Origin: Dyella subtropica
GTDB lineage: Bacteria > Pseudomonadota > Gammaproteobacteria > Xanthomonadales > Rhodanobacteraceae
Length of the DNA stretch: 64,000 nucleotides
Direction: 5' to 3'
Assembly: GCF_026283965.1 (NCBI RefSeq)
Contig: NZ_JAPDPD010000014.1
Location: 1 to 64,000, forward strand
The notes below the pieces were generated by a model. It made no database searches and was not told the origin of the DNA. It was given only the letters and a program-made list of their open reading frames with translations. Within the stretch, counting starts at the first letter, position 1. Each line of letters starts with the position of its first letter. Positions 18,090 through 42,875 of the stretch are shown here, piece by piece. The translations under genes were made by a program, and so were the position numbers.

Positions 18090-18110
18090 CCGAGACGGTG
18101 AGGCGGTGCT

Positions 18111-18380
18111 AAGAGCCTGCTCCCTATCTTTTCGTAGCCCGCGTTGAGTGTCGCCGGGCGCCAGGTGGTGGAGCGTGGCGCAGCGCCTGGCTGGCTGCCA
18201 GGCCAAGCCGCGCGCCGCCGCATGGCGCCCGGCGACACTCAACCCGAAGGGCCGGGTCTGTTTGCACGCCAGCCGGCGTCATCGTTCGGTCGTGTACGGA
18301 CGTACACTTCCTCACTCTTCCTTGGCTGGCGTGCAAACAGATCCCGGCGCGGGCCACGAAAAGATAGAGAGCAGGCTCTT
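18111..18380. repeat. Nested-palindrome element, copy 3 (complete)
   Basis: A 270-bp element bounded by 24-bp terminal inverted repeats with one mismatch (18111-18134 with 18357-18380). Module A has perfect 21-bp arms (18143-18163 with 18223-18243) around GTGGCGCAGC, the apical hairpin GCCTGG/CCAGGC (18185-18190, 18198-18203) and AAGCCGCGCGCC. Module B has perfect 17-bp arms (18258-18274 with 18324-18340) around the hairpin GTGTAC-GGAC-GTACAC (18292-18307). The last base of the element touches the ATG of the next gene. It fills the gap after aceF. Confidence 0.88.
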
Positions 18381-36709: not shown

Positions 36710-36936
36710 TTACTTTTCTCTGGCCAAACAGAGAAAAGTGACCCGGCCTCCGGCAGGAGGACGGAAGCCCGCGGCAGGCGAGCCAGGTCGCGACAACGCG
36801 AGCATCAAACGGCAACGCCACTGGACCCCGGCCTACGCCGGGGTGACGAAGTAGAAGCAGTGTCGCGAGCACCCGCCCCTCACCCCCAATCCTCTCCCTC
36901 GCACACAAATCGGTAACCGGGGAGACAAGGCAGGGG
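36710..36936. repeat. Dispersed intergenic repeat, copy 2
   Basis: It starts with TTACTTTTCTCTG...CAGAGAAAAGTG, runs through GGAAGCCCGCGGCAGGCGAG, the palindrome CCCCGGCCTACGCCGGGG, and ends in a stem related to CGGTAACCGGGG. The same order, reversed, makes up the duplicated unit at 10515-11150, and the second half recurs at 43541-43676. Confidence 0.88.
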
Positions 36937-36940
36937 GCGA

Positions 36941-36969
36941 GCGCCTTGAAAAGGATGGCTCTCAGGCGC
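36941..36969. repeat. Conserved-loop hairpin, copy 1
   Basis: Stem GCGCCT/AGGCGC (36941-36946 with 36964-36969) around a 17-nt loop TGAAAAGGATGGCTCTC. The hairpin at 43682-43712 has nearly the same loop but another stem. It stands directly after a dispersed repeat in both places. Confidence 0.65.
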
Positions 36970-36990
36970 TGAGACGGGCAAAGTGCTATC

Positions 36991-37013
36991 TTGATTATCG
37001 GCCCGATAATCAA
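36991..37013. promoter_or_regulatory. 23-bp palindromic operator upstream of the SOS mutagenesis operon
   Basis: A perfect odd-centred palindrome, arms TTGATTATCGG and its complement around a central C, 11 bases before the ATG of the UmuD-like gene. It overlaps the expected promoter or leader. It does not match the E. coli SOS box (CTGT-N8-ACAG) or the alphaproteobacterial box. It is probably the site of an autoregulator. Confidence 0.75.
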
Positions 37014-37024
37014 ATGCGCATCCC

Positions 37025-37594
37025 ATGCCCCGTTCCGACCATGGTGGATCCCGTCCCGGCGCTGGCCGCCCTGCGGGCGAGGCCAGCCAGCGCATTCGCG
37101 TGCCGGAAAGCCAGGTGCCGGCGGTGCTGGCCTATCTGGACGCCTACCGCCAACCCGCGTCGCTGGAGGCGCCGCGCCCGGTATCGCTGAACCCCTCGAC
37201 GGTCGCGCTCACCGCCTTCACCAGCCGGGTGCCGGCGGGTCTGCCAAGTGCCGCGGACGACCATGTCGACGAGGTGGTCGATCTCAATGAACACCTCGTC
37301 CTTCCGGGGCATGAGCCGAGCACCTTCATCATCCGGGTATCCGGCTGGTCGATGATCGGCGCGGGCATTTTCGATAACGACGAAGTGCTGGTGGATCGCG
37401 CGCTGAAGGCACGGCAGGGCGACATCGTGGTGGCGATCGTCAACGGTGAGTTGTCGATCAAGCGCCTCGGCAAGGTGGATGGCCATATCGCCCTGCTGCC
37501 CGAGAACGCGCACTTCAAACCCATCGTATTCAAGGAAGGCGAAACCCTGGAGATCTGGGGTGTTGTCACCAAGTGCCTGCGCAATCTGCGCTGA
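37025..37594 (+). CDS. umuD: UmuD/LexA-type self-cleaving (S24 peptidase) protein
   Basis: A 189-residue protein heading the mutagenesis operon. The C-terminal S24 domain has the cleavage site A71-G72 (SRVPAGLPSAADDH), catalytic S109 (VSGWSMIGAGIFDND) and K146 (GELSIKRLGK), in the UmuD arrangement. The N-terminus holds a basic GSRPGAGRPAGE motif, then a possible ribbon-helix-helix strand and helix (QRIRVPESQVPAVLAYLDAY), rather than the winged helix of LexA. It could be a UmuD-like polymerase accessory, an autorepressor, or both. The 23-bp palindrome upstream favours some repressor role. LexA2 of other imuABC operons is the known comparison. Confidence 0.85.
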   Translation: MPRSDHGGSRPGAGRPAGEASQRIRVPESQVPAVLAYLDAYRQPASLEAPRPVSLNPSTVALTAFTSRVPAGLPSAADDHVDEVVDLNEHLVLPGHEPSTFIIRVSGWSMIGAGIFDNDEVLVDRALKARQGDIVVAIVNGELSIKRLGKVDGHIALLPENAHFKPIVFKEGETLEIWGVVTKCLRNLR

Positions 37595-37600
37595 GCGGCC

Positions 37601-38221
37601 ATGGGCAACGTCGTCGCGCTGTCGTCACTGATCCAGGGCCGCCAGGTCTGGAAGGGACAGGCGGCGCCGATTCCGGGCAGCAGCCCGACGGGATGGCAGC
37701 TGCTCGATGCCGCGCTGCCGACCGGCGGCTGGCCCGACGCGGCGCTGACGGAAATCCTGCTGCCCGCGGATGGCGTCGGCGAGCTGCAGCTGGTGCTGCC
37801 CACCCTGGCGCGCCTCACCCAGGCAGGCCGCAGCGTGATGGTGATCGCGCCGCCGTATACGCCTTATGTTCTTGGCTGGGAACGGCGCGGTGTGGCGATG
37901 TCGCAGGTGGACATCGTGATGGCCGATATGCGCGACGCGCTGTGGGCGGCCGAGCAATGCCTGCGCTCGGGCAGTTGCGCGGCGGTGCTGGCCTGGCCGA
38001 CGCAGGCGGACGACCGCGCGCTGCGCCGGTTGCAGGTGGCCGCCGATACCGGCAAGGCGCTGGCCTTCGTCTTCCGCGACCGGCGCCATGCGGTGCAGGC
38101 GTCTCCGGCGGCCTTGCGGCTGGAACTGGAAACGGAGCCTTCACTGCAAGTGCGCGTGCGCAAGTGCCGCGGCGGCAACGCGCCTGCACAGCCCGTGCCC
38201 TTGCACGCCGGCTGGTCATGA
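37601..38221 (+). CDS. imuA: ImuA, translesion synthesis accessory protein
   Basis: A 206-residue RecA/SulA-related protein. It has SSPTGWQLLDAALPTGGWPDAALTEIL near the N-terminus, the region that corresponds to the Walker A area, and VMVIAPPYTPYVLGWERRGV. It lacks a proper P-loop, as usual for ImuA. It would help ImuB and DnaE2 in SOS mutagenesis. It starts 6 bases after the umuD stop. A nested-palindrome element begins within its stop codon and separates it from imuB. Confidence 0.9.
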   Translation: MGNVVALSSLIQGRQVWKGQAAPIPGSSPTGWQLLDAALPTGGWPDAALTEILLPADGVGELQLVLPTLARLTQAGRSVMVIAPPYTPYVLGWERRGVAMSQVDIVMADMRDALWAAEQCLRSGSCAAVLAWPTQADDRALRRLQVAADTGKALAFVFRDRRHAVQASPAALRLELETEPSLQVRVRKCRGGNAPAQPVPLHAGWS

Positions 38222-38383
38222 GAGCCTGTTCAATACCTCCGCGCGGCCCGAGTTGGCCCGCTGTGGGCACCAGCTGGCGATGCGCGGCTTGGCCTGACAG
38301 CCAGTCAGGCGCTGCGCCACGCCCCACCACCTGGCACCCACAGCGAACCAACTCGGGCTGCTCAGAGATATTGAACAGGCTCT
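38221..38383. repeat. Nested-palindrome element, copy 4, inside the imu operon
   Basis: A 163-bp element with 19-bp terminal inverted repeats, one mismatch (38221-38239 with 38365-38383). The inner arms 38249-38273 and 38331-38355 pair with a few mismatches. The core is GCGCGGCTTG, the apical hairpin GCCTGAC/GTCAGGC (38292-38298 with 38304-38310, loop AGCCA), and GCTGCGCCACGC. It has a single module only. The first base is the last base of the imuA stop, and the Shine-Dalgarno GAGGAGG of imuB follows directly after its end. Confidence 0.85.
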
Positions 38384-38397
38384 GAGGAGGGCGCGTC

Positions 38398-39807
38398 ATG
38401 CTGTGGGCCTGCGTACTGCTGCCGCATCTGGCGCTGGATGGTGTCCTTCGACGCCGCCCTTCCTCTGACGCGCCTTTGGCGCTGGTGACCGGGTCGGCGC
38501 AGGCGCGCACGATCTTCGCCGCCAATGCGCCGGCTCGCGCCGCCGGTTTGCGCGCTGGGCAACGTCTGTCGGCAGCGCAGGCTTTGCTGAGCCAGTTCGA
38601 GACGATCGAGCACGACCCGGAGGCGGTGAAACGCTGGCATCGTTTTCTGGCCGCATGGGCGTATCGCTACAGCTCCGAGGTGACGTTGTTCCCGCACGCG
38701 ATCGTGCTGGAGGTGAGCCGGAGTCTCGGTCTGTTCGGACCCTGGCCGCGCTTTGAGCGCTTGCTGCGCGACGATCTTGTGTCGCTGGGTTTTCGCCATC
38801 GCGTGACGCTGGCGCCGACCGCGCATGCCGCCTATGTGTTGGCGGGCATGCACGATGGCCTGGCGGTGACCACGCCGGAGACTTTGCAGCGTGCGCTGGG
38901 CGCGGTGTCGATCGCGCATGCTCGCCTTCCGCCGAAAGCCGCTGCATCTCTGCCGATGATGGGCATCCGTCAGCTGGGGCAGTTGCTGAGCTTGCCGCGC
39001 GCCAGCTTGCAGCGCCGCTTCGGCAGCGAATTGCTGGACTACCTGGATCGGCTGACCGGCGACGCACCCGAGTTGATGGAAGGCTATCGGCCACCCGATA
39101 CGCTGGACCTGCGCATGGAGTGGACGCATGAGATCGAGCAGGTCGAGGCGCTGATGTTTCCACTGCGCCGATTGACCGGCGATCTTGCCGCGTACCTGGC
39201 GGGACGCGACGGTGGTGTGCAGCGCTTCGTGCTGGAACTGGAGCATCGCGCGGGAGCGCCGACGCGCGTGAACGTGGGCCTGCTCGCTGCAGAGCGCGAT
39301 GGCGCGCTGTTGTTCGAATGCGCGCGTGGACGGCTGGAGCGCCTGGAGCTTCCGCAGCCCGTCGTGGCGATGCGACTGATGGCGCGTGAGCTTCCGCCGT
39401 TCGTGCCGGCCGGGCGCGATCTGTTCGATACGCGCCCCGCGAACGCCATGCCGTTGGAGCAGTTGCGTGAGCGTTTGCGTGCGCGGCTTGGTGAGCGCGC
39501 CATCCATCGGTTGCGGCGCACGATCGATCCCCGTCCCGAACATGCGCAGACGACAGCCGAGGACATGAGGCTTCCGCCGGTGGTGACATCACTGCCACGC
39601 CCGACCTGGCTGCTTGGCACGCCGATACCGCTGCGCGGACAAGTCACGGTACTGGCCGGCCCGGAGCGCATGGAAACAGGCTGGTGGGACGGCGGCGATC
39701 TGCGCCGCGACTACTACGTAGTGCGCACTGCGCAAGGGCAGCGTGCCTGGGTATTCTGTCCGCCGGGTGAGCCGGGCCAATGGATGCTGCACGGGTGGTT
39801 CGCATGA
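38398..39807 (+). CDS. imuB: ImuB, catalytically inactive Y-family polymerase homologue
   Basis: A 469-residue Y-family-like protein. It keeps the fold ([29 protein letters not shown]) but where DinB has the acidic SLDEA motif it has [10 protein letters not shown], so the catalytic acids are missing, as in other ImuB proteins. ImuB links DnaE2 to the beta clamp. The clamp motif is not certain, though [14 protein letters not shown]-like segments fit the helix-hairpin region. The start follows GAGGAGG at 38383-38389. It overlaps dnaE2 by 4 bases. Confidence 0.92.
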
Positions 39808-42800
39808 ACACCTATGCCGAGCTGCATTGCCTGTCGAATTTTTCGTTCCAGCGGGGCGCGTCGAGTGCGCGCGAGTTGTTCGATCGCGCCAAGGCATGTG
39901 GCTACTCCGCGCTGGCGATCACCGACGAGTGTTCGCTGGCCGGCATCGTGCGTGCGCATGAAGCCGCGCGCGATACCGAGATCCAACTGATCGTCGGCGC
40001 CGAATTCCAGCTGGACGATGGTCCGAAGCTGGTGCTGCTGTGCGAGAACCTGGCCGGTTACAGCGCGTTGTGCGCCTTGATCACGCGTGGCCGGCGTGCG
40101 GCAGAGAAGGGGCGTTATCGCGTTTCACGGCACGACCTGGCCGATGGCTTGCCCGGCACGCTGGCGCTGTGGATACCCGCGGCCGAACCGGATCGCGAAC
40201 ACGGTGCATGGTTGCGCTCACTGTTCGGCGATCGCCTGTGGCTGGCGGTGGAGCTGCATTGCGGGCCGGACGACGCCCAGCGCCTGCGGACACTCGAAAC
40301 TCTGGCGGCATCGCTCGGTATAGCGATGGTGGCTGCTGGCGATGTTCACATGCATGTGCGTCGTCGTCGTGCCTTGCAGGATGTGCTGACGGCGATTCGC
40401 CATCACCTCACCATGGCGGAAGCCGGCGCGGTGCTGTTCAAGAATGGCGAGCGTCATTTGCGCACACGCGATGCGCTGGCGGCGATTTACCCCGCGGCCT
40501 TGATGGAAGAAAGCGTGCGCATCGCCGGACGTTGCCATTTCAGTCTGACGGAGTTGCGCTACCGCTATCCCGCCGAGTTGGTGCCGGCAGGGCATACGCC
40601 GGCCACGTGGCTGCGGCATTTGACGGAGAAGGGCATCCGCTGGCGTTGGCCGAGTGGCGCGCCGGCCAAGGCGCTCGCCCAGATCGAGCACGAGCTTGGA
40701 CTGATTGCCGCGCTCGGCTACGAATCCTATTTCCTCACTGTGCAGGACATCGTCCGTTTCGCCCGTGACGAAAACATCCTTTGCCAAGGGCGCGGTTCGG
40801 CGGCGAATTCCGCTGTCTGCTATGTGCTGGGCGTGACCGAGGTGGATCCGGATCGCATCAATCTGCTGGTCGAACGTTTCATTTCCATCGAGCGTAACGA
40901 GCCACCGGATATCGACGTCGATTTCGAGCACGAGCGGCGCGAGGAAGTGATCCAGTACATCTATCGCAAATACGGTCGCGACCGCGCCGCGCTGGCGGCC
41001 ACTGTCATCAGCTATCGCGGCAAGAGCGCCGTGCGCGACGTGGCGCGTACCCTGGGTCTGCCGACCGACCAGATCGATATGCTGTCCAAGGTGCTGGCGT
41101 GGTGGGATGGTGAGGAGCCGCTGGACGGGCCATTGCGCGAGCGCGGTTTCGACCCGGCCAGCCCGGTACTGCAGCGCGTGTTGAAGCTCACGGCCGAGCT
41201 GCTGGATGCTCCGCGCCACCTGTCGCAACACGTGGGCGGCTTCGTAATCTCCGACCAGCCGCTGTCGCAACTGGTGCCGGTCGAGAATGCCGCCATGCCT
41301 GATCGCACCATCATCCAGTGGGACAAGGACGATCTGGATGCGTTGGGCTTGCTCAAGGTGGATTGCCTCGCGCTCGGCATGCTGACTTGCGTGCGTAAAT
41401 GCCTGGATCTGCTGCGCCAGCATCGCGGCAAGGATCTGACGCCCGACACCATCCCGAAAGAGGATCCCGATACTTACGCCATGATCCAGCGCGCCGACAC
41501 CATCGGTGTGTTCCAGATCGAAAGTCGTGCGCAGATGGCCATGCTCCCGCGGTTGCTGCCAAAGAATTTCTACGACCTGGTGATCGAAGTGGCGATCGTG
41601 CGGCCGGGGCCGATCCAGGGCGACATGGTGCACCCGTATCTGCGACGCCGGCGTGGTGAGGAGGGTGTCGACTATCCATCTGAAAAGCTGAAGCCGGTGT
41701 TCGAGCGCACGTTGGGCGTACCGTTGTTCCAGGAGCAAGTCATGAAGTTGGCTATCGTGGCGGCCGACTACACGCCCGGTGAGGCTGATCAACTGCGTCG
41801 CGCGATGGCCGCCTGGAAGCGGCATGGCGGTATGGAAAAACACCGCGAACGCATTACCCAGGGCATGCTTAAAAATGGCTACACCGCCGAATTCGCGGCG
41901 CGCCTGTTCGAGCAGATCAAGGGCTTCGGCTCCTATGGTTTTCCCGAGAGCCACGCCGCGAGTTTCGCCGGCATCGTCTACGCCAGCAGCTGGCTGAAAT
42001 GCCATGAGCCGGCGGCGTTCACCTGCGCCTTGCTCAATGCGCAGCCGATGGGTTTCTACGGACCGAGCCAGATCGTGCAGGACGCACAGCGTCATGGCGT
42101 GACGGTGCGGCCGGTCGATGTGCGTTACAGCGAGTGGGACAACACGCTGGAAGCCGACGCGAGCGGTTCGCTGATGCTGCGGCTCGGACTCCGTCAGGTA
42201 CGCGGATTCAGAGAGGACGTTGCACATCGTTTGTCAGGCGCGCGTCAGCACGGTGCCTTCAGCGACATGGCCGACCTATGCGCACGCGCCGGACTCGATA
42301 GCCACCATCAGGAGGCGTTGGCCGAAGCGGGCGCCTTGCGCGGCCTGGCCGGCCATCGCCACCGCGCACGGTGGGCCATCGCCGGTGTCGAGCCGCAGCT
42401 GCCGTTGTTCGGTCACGCGAGTCCAAAGGAACAGGCCATCGTGCTGCCGCCGCCATCGCAGGCCGAAGACACCCTGGCTGATTACGCGCGCGTGGGTCTG
42501 AGCCTGGGGCCGCATCCCATGCAGCAGATTCGTGCCCGATTGCGGGCCGCGCGTTGCGTGGATTCACGCGCGCTACGCGATCGCCCCCATGCCAGCCAAG
42601 TGCGCACCGCCGGCTTGGTCACACAGCGCCAGCGACCGCAGACCGCAAGCGGCGTCACCTTCATCACGCTGGAAGACGAGTACGGGCCGATCAATATCGT
42701 TGTCTGGAGTCAGGTCGCCGAGAGGCAGCGACGCGTTTTTCTGGAGGCGCGCCTGATGGGCGTCGATGGGCAATGGGAGCAGGTGGATGGTGTCAGTCAT

Positions 42801-42875
42801 TTGATCGCGCATCGGCTGATCGATATGAGCGAACTGCTTGGGCCGCTCGACAGTCGGTCGAGGGACTTTCATTGA
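39804..42875 (+). CDS. dnaE2: Error-prone DNA polymerase DnaE2 (ImuC)
   Basis: A 1023-residue C-family polymerase. The PHP domain is at the N-terminus ([42 protein letters not shown]). The polymerase core has [21 protein letters not shown] and the catalytic acids in [36 protein letters not shown]-like and [14 protein letters not shown] segments follow, with an OB domain near the C-terminus ([18 protein letters not shown]). It copies past lesions with ImuA and ImuB during the SOS response. The start ATG overlaps the imuB stop (ATGA); the open frame begins at 39780. Confidence 0.95.

Follow-up and report, generated by a model that had tools for sequence, protein, structure and literature searches.

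The first gene of the imuA-imuB-dnaE2 operon of Dyella subtropica very probably encodes a UmuDAb-type autorepressor of the whole umuD-like-imuA-imuB-dnaE2 operon, relieved by self-cleavage after DNA damage. We computed the homology of both halves of the protein to UmuDAb and UmuD, its catalytic residues, the position of its operator, the co-occurrence of domain and operator, and the absence of LexA, and from these we infer binding, repression, RecA-stimulated cleavage, and damage induction. A sequence-only reading of the same DNA had proposed that a self-cleaving protein autoregulates the mutagenesis operon through an operator of its own, which the domain-operator pairing supports; it had also proposed a new type of regulator, and this novelty did not survive, as the protein shares its N-terminal domain with UmuDAb and the site has the TTGA/TCAA arms of UmuDAb.

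The operon and the S24 domain

The window, by which we mean the whole 64-kb stretch of DNA that was analyzed, carries a gene for a 189-aa S24 protein (37025-37594) as the first gene of the imuA-imuB-dnaE2 operon, with all genes on the same strand (Table 1). Pfam found Peptidase_S24 (residues 67-181) as the sole match in this protein and none in its N-terminus, and therefore a LexA winged helix is missing, in agreement with the sequence-only reading. Like LexA, the protein has an S24 domain with the residues for self-cleavage and is predicted to autoregulate DNA-damage genes, but it lacks the winged helix, has a different operator, and scores 90.3 bits on the LexA model, below the cut-off of 110.95. 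The S24 part exceeds the NCBIfam cut-off for UmuD (NF007621, 129.6 bits, cut-off 110), and its nearest solved fold in Foldseek is UmuD′ (1ay9); these features are shared with UmuD of DNA polymerase V, from which the window protein differs by its additional DNA-binding-type domain, its operator, and an operon without umuC. Since the predicted cleavage site and the catalytic serine and lysine are intact, RecA-stimulated self-cleavage is the likely mode of release, as in UmuDAb and LexA.

The gap between imuA and imuB is 176 bases in the window versus about 12 in the related locus L003. The space between the two genes holds a repeat (38221-38383) that is self-complementary and about 160 bp long; a second copy, 81% alike, is found at 18109-18230, and the element is probably a small mobile repeat.

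Table 1. Features of the locus, with positions in the window
Feature	Position	Strand	Basis or remark
P1, second inverted repeat TCTCA-GGCGC-TGAGA	36960..36974		16 bp before operator; conserved in relatives
Probable extended -10 promoter element TGcTATCTT	36984..36992	+	Overlaps left arm of operator
Predicted operator	36991..37013		Arms TTGATT (36991-36996) and AATCAA (37008-37013), centre ATCGGCCCGAT; arms kept in relatives
Predicted UmuDAb-type self-cleaving repressor gene	37025..37594	+	189 aa, S24; Pfam, NCBIfam, UmuDAb homology
Predicted N-terminal DNA-binding domain, residues 1-43	37025..37153	+	Basic arm HGGSRPGAGRP, extended EASQRIRVP, helix 28-42; alignments, model
Predicted cleavage site Ala71-Gly72	37235..37240	+	Gly72 invariant, Ala71 at least 90% conserved, 51 sequences
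Predicted catalytic Ser109	37349..37351	+	Invariant in 51 sequences
Predicted catalytic Lys146	37460..37462	+	Invariant in 51 sequences
imuA	37601..38221	+	NF033429 ImuA_translesion, 216 bits, cut-off 150
imuB (Y-family-like polymerase)	38398..39807	+	PF00817 IMS, 30 bits, cut-off 23.2
dnaE2 / imuC (error-prone polymerase)	39780..42875	+	NF004225 error-prone DNA polymerase, 1521 bits, cut-off 939

The N-terminal domain

The consensus of the N-terminal domain is HGGxRPGAGRP..E..IRVPxSQ, and the RPGAGRP-type basic motif pointed out in the sequence-only reading occupies residues 10-16 of the 189-aa protein; R10, G14, R15, and P27 do not vary across 51 sequences. Pfam searches of 31 domain-bearing members gave S24 plus sub-threshold noise and nothing else, a PDB profile search with the domain found no match (best E 0.43), and Foldseek matches cover the S24 part, with none to the N-terminal domain. 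In two monomer models, built from alignments of 31 and 51 sequences, the arm is disordered, the residues around 20-27 are extended (mean pLDDT of about 80 for block 21-30), a single helix spans 28-42, and the linker that follows is disordered up to about residue 69; no strand is assigned.

Ribbon-helix-helix repressors have an extended segment followed by a helix, plus a second helix. It is unlikely that the window protein is a true member of this group, with two chains forming a two-stranded sheet through IRVP and binding one operator. The extended IRVP followed by the helix SQVxxVxxYL does resemble the first half of such a unit, and neither Pfam nor PDB gave a match that contradicts it, but the domain has no profile match to a known domain either, and both models show a single helix with a disordered linker past residue 43, although as monomer models they leave space for an unusual dimer. 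Several family members are too short for a second helix: the stretch from P27 to the scissile Gly measures 27-28 residues in the shortest members and 17 in locus L145, and part of it belongs to the S24 domain, so there is no room for one. The sequence-only reading was thus right about an extended stretch that leads into a helix, while the strand (none in the monomer models) and the ribbon-helix-helix as a whole were not borne out. Judging by the models, we would favor a basic arm with a strand-helix unit, dimerized by S24, over either a helix-turn-helix or a full ribbon-helix-helix.

Homology to UmuDAb

A 378-kb Acinetobacter contig (L114) encodes a 203-aa protein in which E24, K40, N41, A83, G124, and W192 fit the published numbering, and its gene adjoins a divergent 78-aa ORF, as in umuDAb-ddrR; by these features, the protein appears to be UmuDAb. 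The contig itself is filed as Acinetobacter phage, carries umuDAb and the ddrR-like ORF, and is probably bacterial chromosome. Aligned from residue 1, the window protein and UmuDAb are 36% identical over 208 columns, and a profile built from 18 non-Acinetobacter domains gave 49.5 bits on UmuDAb residues 8-43, where the best of 20,000 shuffles gave 9.6. The UmuDAb mutants E24K and K40P/N41P are impaired in repression and DNA binding (PMC11332147), and E24 and K40/N41 fall inside the arm-strand-helix domain. In the available text of the same source, the N-terminus of UmuDAb is described as two helices of a putative helix-turn-helix, and its operator as 21 bp with TTGA/TCAA arms and a GTnAC core that matters more than the arms (PMC11332147); an operator of this type is seen in L114. 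A tblastn search for DdrR at E 0.01 among 94 locus sequences matched its own locus alone.

The operator palindrome

A perfect 23-bp palindrome, TTGATTATCGG-C-CCGATAATCAA, with arms of 11 bp (36991-37013; full sequence TTGATTATCGGCCCGATAATCAA), lies 11 bases before the ATG at 37025, as described in the sequence-only reading, and the whole 23-mer occurs at one place in the genome even when three mismatches are allowed. Its description as unlike known SOS boxes also held: seven LexA box patterns scanned over 36850-37060 gave no LexA-type box in the promoter, where that reading had named a canonical LexA2 box as counterevidence, and the lone match in the interval, to an alpha-type pattern with 2 mismatches, starts within the gene itself (37032). 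The 21-bp UmuDAb operator pattern had no match over 36850-37060 even with 6 mismatches allowed.

It is highly improbable that the inverted repeat works as an RNA or terminator hairpin instead of a protein site. Its 11-bp arms are perfect, and it is one of five such repeats (arms 11, loop up to 4) in the window, where 60 dinucleotide shuffles gave a mean of 0.18 and a maximum of 2, so four others of this size exist; in relatives, however, the inner stem is broken and the arms are kept (e.g., TTGATTGACGTCCCGATAATCAA), no T run is present, and the repeat overlaps the predicted -10 element. Because relatives keep the operator arms without the palindromic centre, and the centre in the window is GGCCC and not a GT core, the conserved entity is the two arms, and complete palindromy in the window is a local accident. 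The perfect palindrome as such, which the sequence-only reading had taken for the operator, is therefore not what has been conserved.

Pairing of domain and operator

The family set comprised 62 loci, 23 of them named and 39 chosen from S24 tables (LexA N-terminus absent or gene before imuABC). Three lack the domain (L091, L095, and L097), and the other 59 gave 44 distinct N-termini once identical first 40 residues were merged. TTGAWT-N10/11-AWTCAA was found within 130 bases upstream of all 44 domain-bearing genes, 40 exact and 4 with one mismatch, where the chance level for at least 11/12 arm positions in this sample is 0.29 (dinucleotide shuffles). At the same threshold, arms were found before 0/28 LexA genes of the same family (3 reach 10/12, with 1.24 expected) and 0/3 S24 genes without the domain. 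A GTnC-type core is present in 32/44, and the other 12 fail the core rule, as the window does.

The operator precedes imuABC in L003-L022 (20/20 with imuA and imuB; dnaE2 in 19, as one contig ends) and in L069-L085, which are partly the same loci. It also precedes imuABC in L104-L107, in which the N-terminal domain is joined to a LexA-type C-domain; two of these were tested and gave 143.5 and 138.4 bits on TIGR00498, so that the NCBIfam model calls them LexA without a winged helix. In the domain-bearing loci of L093-L103, the operator lies before Y-family polymerase ORFs (umuDC-like pairs, by eye), and both domain and operator are missing from L095 and L097. Absence of the palindrome before orthologous operons, which the sequence-only reading had named as an argument against itself, was not observed, and the arms are conserved there.

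At the class level, the domain profile matched 34/369 gammaproteobacterial genomes and 30/272 genera, with the four weakest matching by the basic arm alone. Among 29 loci beyond the window, at least 11/12 arm positions were found in 15 (0.78 expected), at least 10/12 in 24 (7.05 expected), and at least 10/12 together with a GTnC-type core in 20 (1.11 expected), the arms having been taken from the Xanthomonadales set and the core rule written after the class-level upstream regions had been inspected, so that it is not independent. L119, L120, L126, L141, and L142 stay below 10/12, and L138, L139, L143, and L145 lack the core. A search of the phylum found the domain in 8/398 genomes, some by the arm alone; the domain family is mainly gammaproteobacterial in the sampled genomes.

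One genome, G323, encodes three proteins of about 91-96 aa that lack S24 and carry an unrelated tail behind the domain (L148, L149, and L150; contigs C16, C88, and C91); the tail of the one protein tested belongs to no Pfam or NCBIfam family. At least one operator copy lies before each of these genes. TTGAWT..GTWAC..WTCAA occurs at 13 places in the 3.4-Mb genome, and none of these is outside the three small contigs (5.0, 3.5, and 3.5 kb) that encode these proteins; the reversed-pattern control gave 1 place. The link between domain and operator is therefore separable from self-cleavage. Across these loci, the operator goes with the domain and not with the downstream genes.

Two viral contigs (L182 and L183) carry domain-bearing S24 genes whose upstream operator arms score 11/12 and 12/12. 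An AGR-type basic arm without RVP is also present in phage-contig proteins (L184-L188), with upstream arm scores of 8 to 10 of 12, and in L177, L179, and L180 from the phylum search; such an arm alone is not specific to the domain family. L177 has a 12/12 operator-arm match in AT-rich DNA, without the core, a warning against over-reading single matches.

Promoter and second inverted repeat

TGnTAnnnT is found at the place corresponding to the extended -10 element in 39/45 promoters, and as the left operator arm overlaps this conserved element, binding should exclude polymerase. The second inverted repeat, P1, scored as TCTCA-N5-TGAGA or TCGCA-N5-TGCGA, keeps at least 8/10 positions in 41/45 promoters (window included), 15-17 bp from the operator, with the TCGCA-N5-TGCGA variant in L104-L107. 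It also precedes two UmuD genes that have neither domain nor operator (L091 and L095), and it occurs at 5 exact places in the genome; no damage genes were seen near the other four when their ORFs were inspected by eye. P1 points to a further factor that may act on this promoter.

Such a P1 factor, or another unrelated regulator, could own the palindrome, in which case the S24 protein would be a UmuD-like polymerase manager whose N-terminal extension serves another purpose. This we hold to be very unlikely. P1 is as conserved as the operator in the family and stands before UmuD genes with neither domain nor operator, both of which would fit an independent regulator, but no operator is found where the domain is missing, whether before S24 or LexA genes, and the operator tracks the domain across operons, C-domains, and genera, even without S24. 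Moreover, in vitro binding to arms of this kind is documented for UmuDAb, which has the same domain (PMC11332147).

LexA and the regulon

At an E-value limit of 0.01, the 37025-37594 product is the single S24 match in the genome assembly (4.95 Mb, 99.96% complete). No LexA DNA-binding domain in it exceeded the cut-off (five weak matches, best 18.9 vs 23.7 bits), and the single match to TIGR00498 was the 37025-37594 gene, below the cut-off. TIGR00498 exceeded its cut-off in 90/147 sampled genomes of the family, in 0/6 genomes of the window's genus (g1), and in 0/11 of the g14 genomes listed; all 17 g1 and g14 genomes carry a gene of the 37025-37594 type before imuABC, and several of them have further S24 matches (e.g., G040, G053, G081, and G133). 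Because no LexA was found in the genome, the protein would serve there as the LexA-like switch of the mutagenic polymerases. Some domain-bearing relatives also have LexA (e.g., G009, G058, G034, and G051), so the domain-operator pair is independent of LexA absence.

A 27-base operator pattern with up to 3 mismatches occurs at 7 places in the genome, and the imu site is the only one with up to 2. Exact operator arms with spacers of 9-12 occur at 2 places, the imu site and a site 80 bp before metJ; the latter has no core and was rejected as a second operator, being taken as chance. No operator was seen by eye upstream of recA, so the suggestion that the palindrome marks other damage genes of the genome is unsupported. 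As the genome has one good operator, the regulon looks like essentially one operon, a single-operon switch. A small perfect repeat, CAGTAT-GGG-ATACTG, lies upstream of recA (G000:C11 around 327985, L108).

Discussion

In the mechanism that we propose, two repressor copies joined via S24 would place their N-terminal arm-strand-helix domains on the TTGATT...AATCAA arms. Both the extended -10 and the probable start site are overlapped by the operator, so its occupancy would shut down transcription of the entire operon. Upon DNA damage, cleavage between Ala71 and Gly72 by Ser109/Lys146 would be stimulated by the RecA filament, detaching the DNA-binding part and allowing expression of the operon; once RecA is no longer active, fresh repressor would silence it again. 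Counting against the autorepressor are the GGCCC centre of the window's operator in place of a GT core, the 12/44 relatives that fail the core rule, and the unmatched 21-bp pattern of UmuDAb, and also the class-level misses (5/29 below 10/12 arms and 4 more without core) and the second conserved repeat P1.

As far as the available text of these sources goes, the window protein shares with UmuDAb homologous N-terminal and S24 domains over its whole length, the TTGA/TCAA arms, an Ala-Gly cleavage site, and an upstream operator (PMC4807011, PMC11332147, PMC7273328, PMC3978071). A host without LexA is also shared, but this is not general, given the domain-bearing relatives with LexA. The two systems differ in their operators, which are 21 bp with GTnAC for UmuDAb and 22-23 bp in the present set, with GTCCC/GTnC in relatives and GGCCC in the window, and in their surroundings, as umuDAb adjoins ddrR whereas the window gene sits in an imuABC operon. 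UmuDAb, by the same accounts, acts on several umuDC operons, in contrast to the apparent regulon of one operon in the window. The GTnAC core and the 21-bp length characterize the Acinetobacter site, not the protein family at large. Other S24 repressors that are not LexA have taken over SOS-like genes, among them HdiR in Streptococcaceae and non-canonical LexA proteins in Bacteroidetes; these are described as phage-repressor-like, with other motifs (PMC8565304).

The accessible parts of the literature place UmuDAb in Acinetobacter or Moraxellaceae (PMC4807011, PMC11332147, PMC8565304, PMC3978071, PMC7273328), call its operator unique, and consider its domain helix-turn-helix-like (PMC11332147, PMC8565304). 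In open-licence literature, we found no description of a UmuDAb-type family outside Acinetobacter, nothing on LexA in Dyella or on LexA and the SOS response in Rhodanobacter, and incidental mentions alone of UmuD with ribbon-helix-helix. Our results suggest that a switch of the UmuDAb kind is much more widespread than thought. We lean toward a broader view in which the arm-strand-helix domain is an unrecognized proteobacterial DNA-binding family, neither helix-turn-helix nor full ribbon-helix-helix, that is portable with its own TTGAWT-(GTnC)-AWTCAA operator. Before umuDC or imuABC, it would be joined to self-cleaving domains of the UmuD or LexA type, and on small contigs to partners that do not cleave; it would have replaced LexA in Dyella-like bacteria and put RecA-controlled mutagenesis on a single-operon switch. 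If this is true, UmuDAb is one member of a broad family and not a peculiarity of Acinetobacter or Moraxellaceae, its operator can be read from sequence, and its DNA-binding domain is of another make than helix-turn-helix. The family would also explain damage control of mutagenic polymerases in lineages that show no LexA, and the dozens of protein-operator pairs provide a test set for recognition rules and for the replacement of SOS repressors.

On an A. baumannii plasmid (L115, 1335-1365) and an Acinetobacter phage (L117, 1370-1395), umuD genes without the domain have UmuDAb-like sites upstream, TTGATTACGTTACGTTTTCAA and TTGAATATGTTACAAAATCAA, respectively, as would be expected of targets of the host's UmuDAb.
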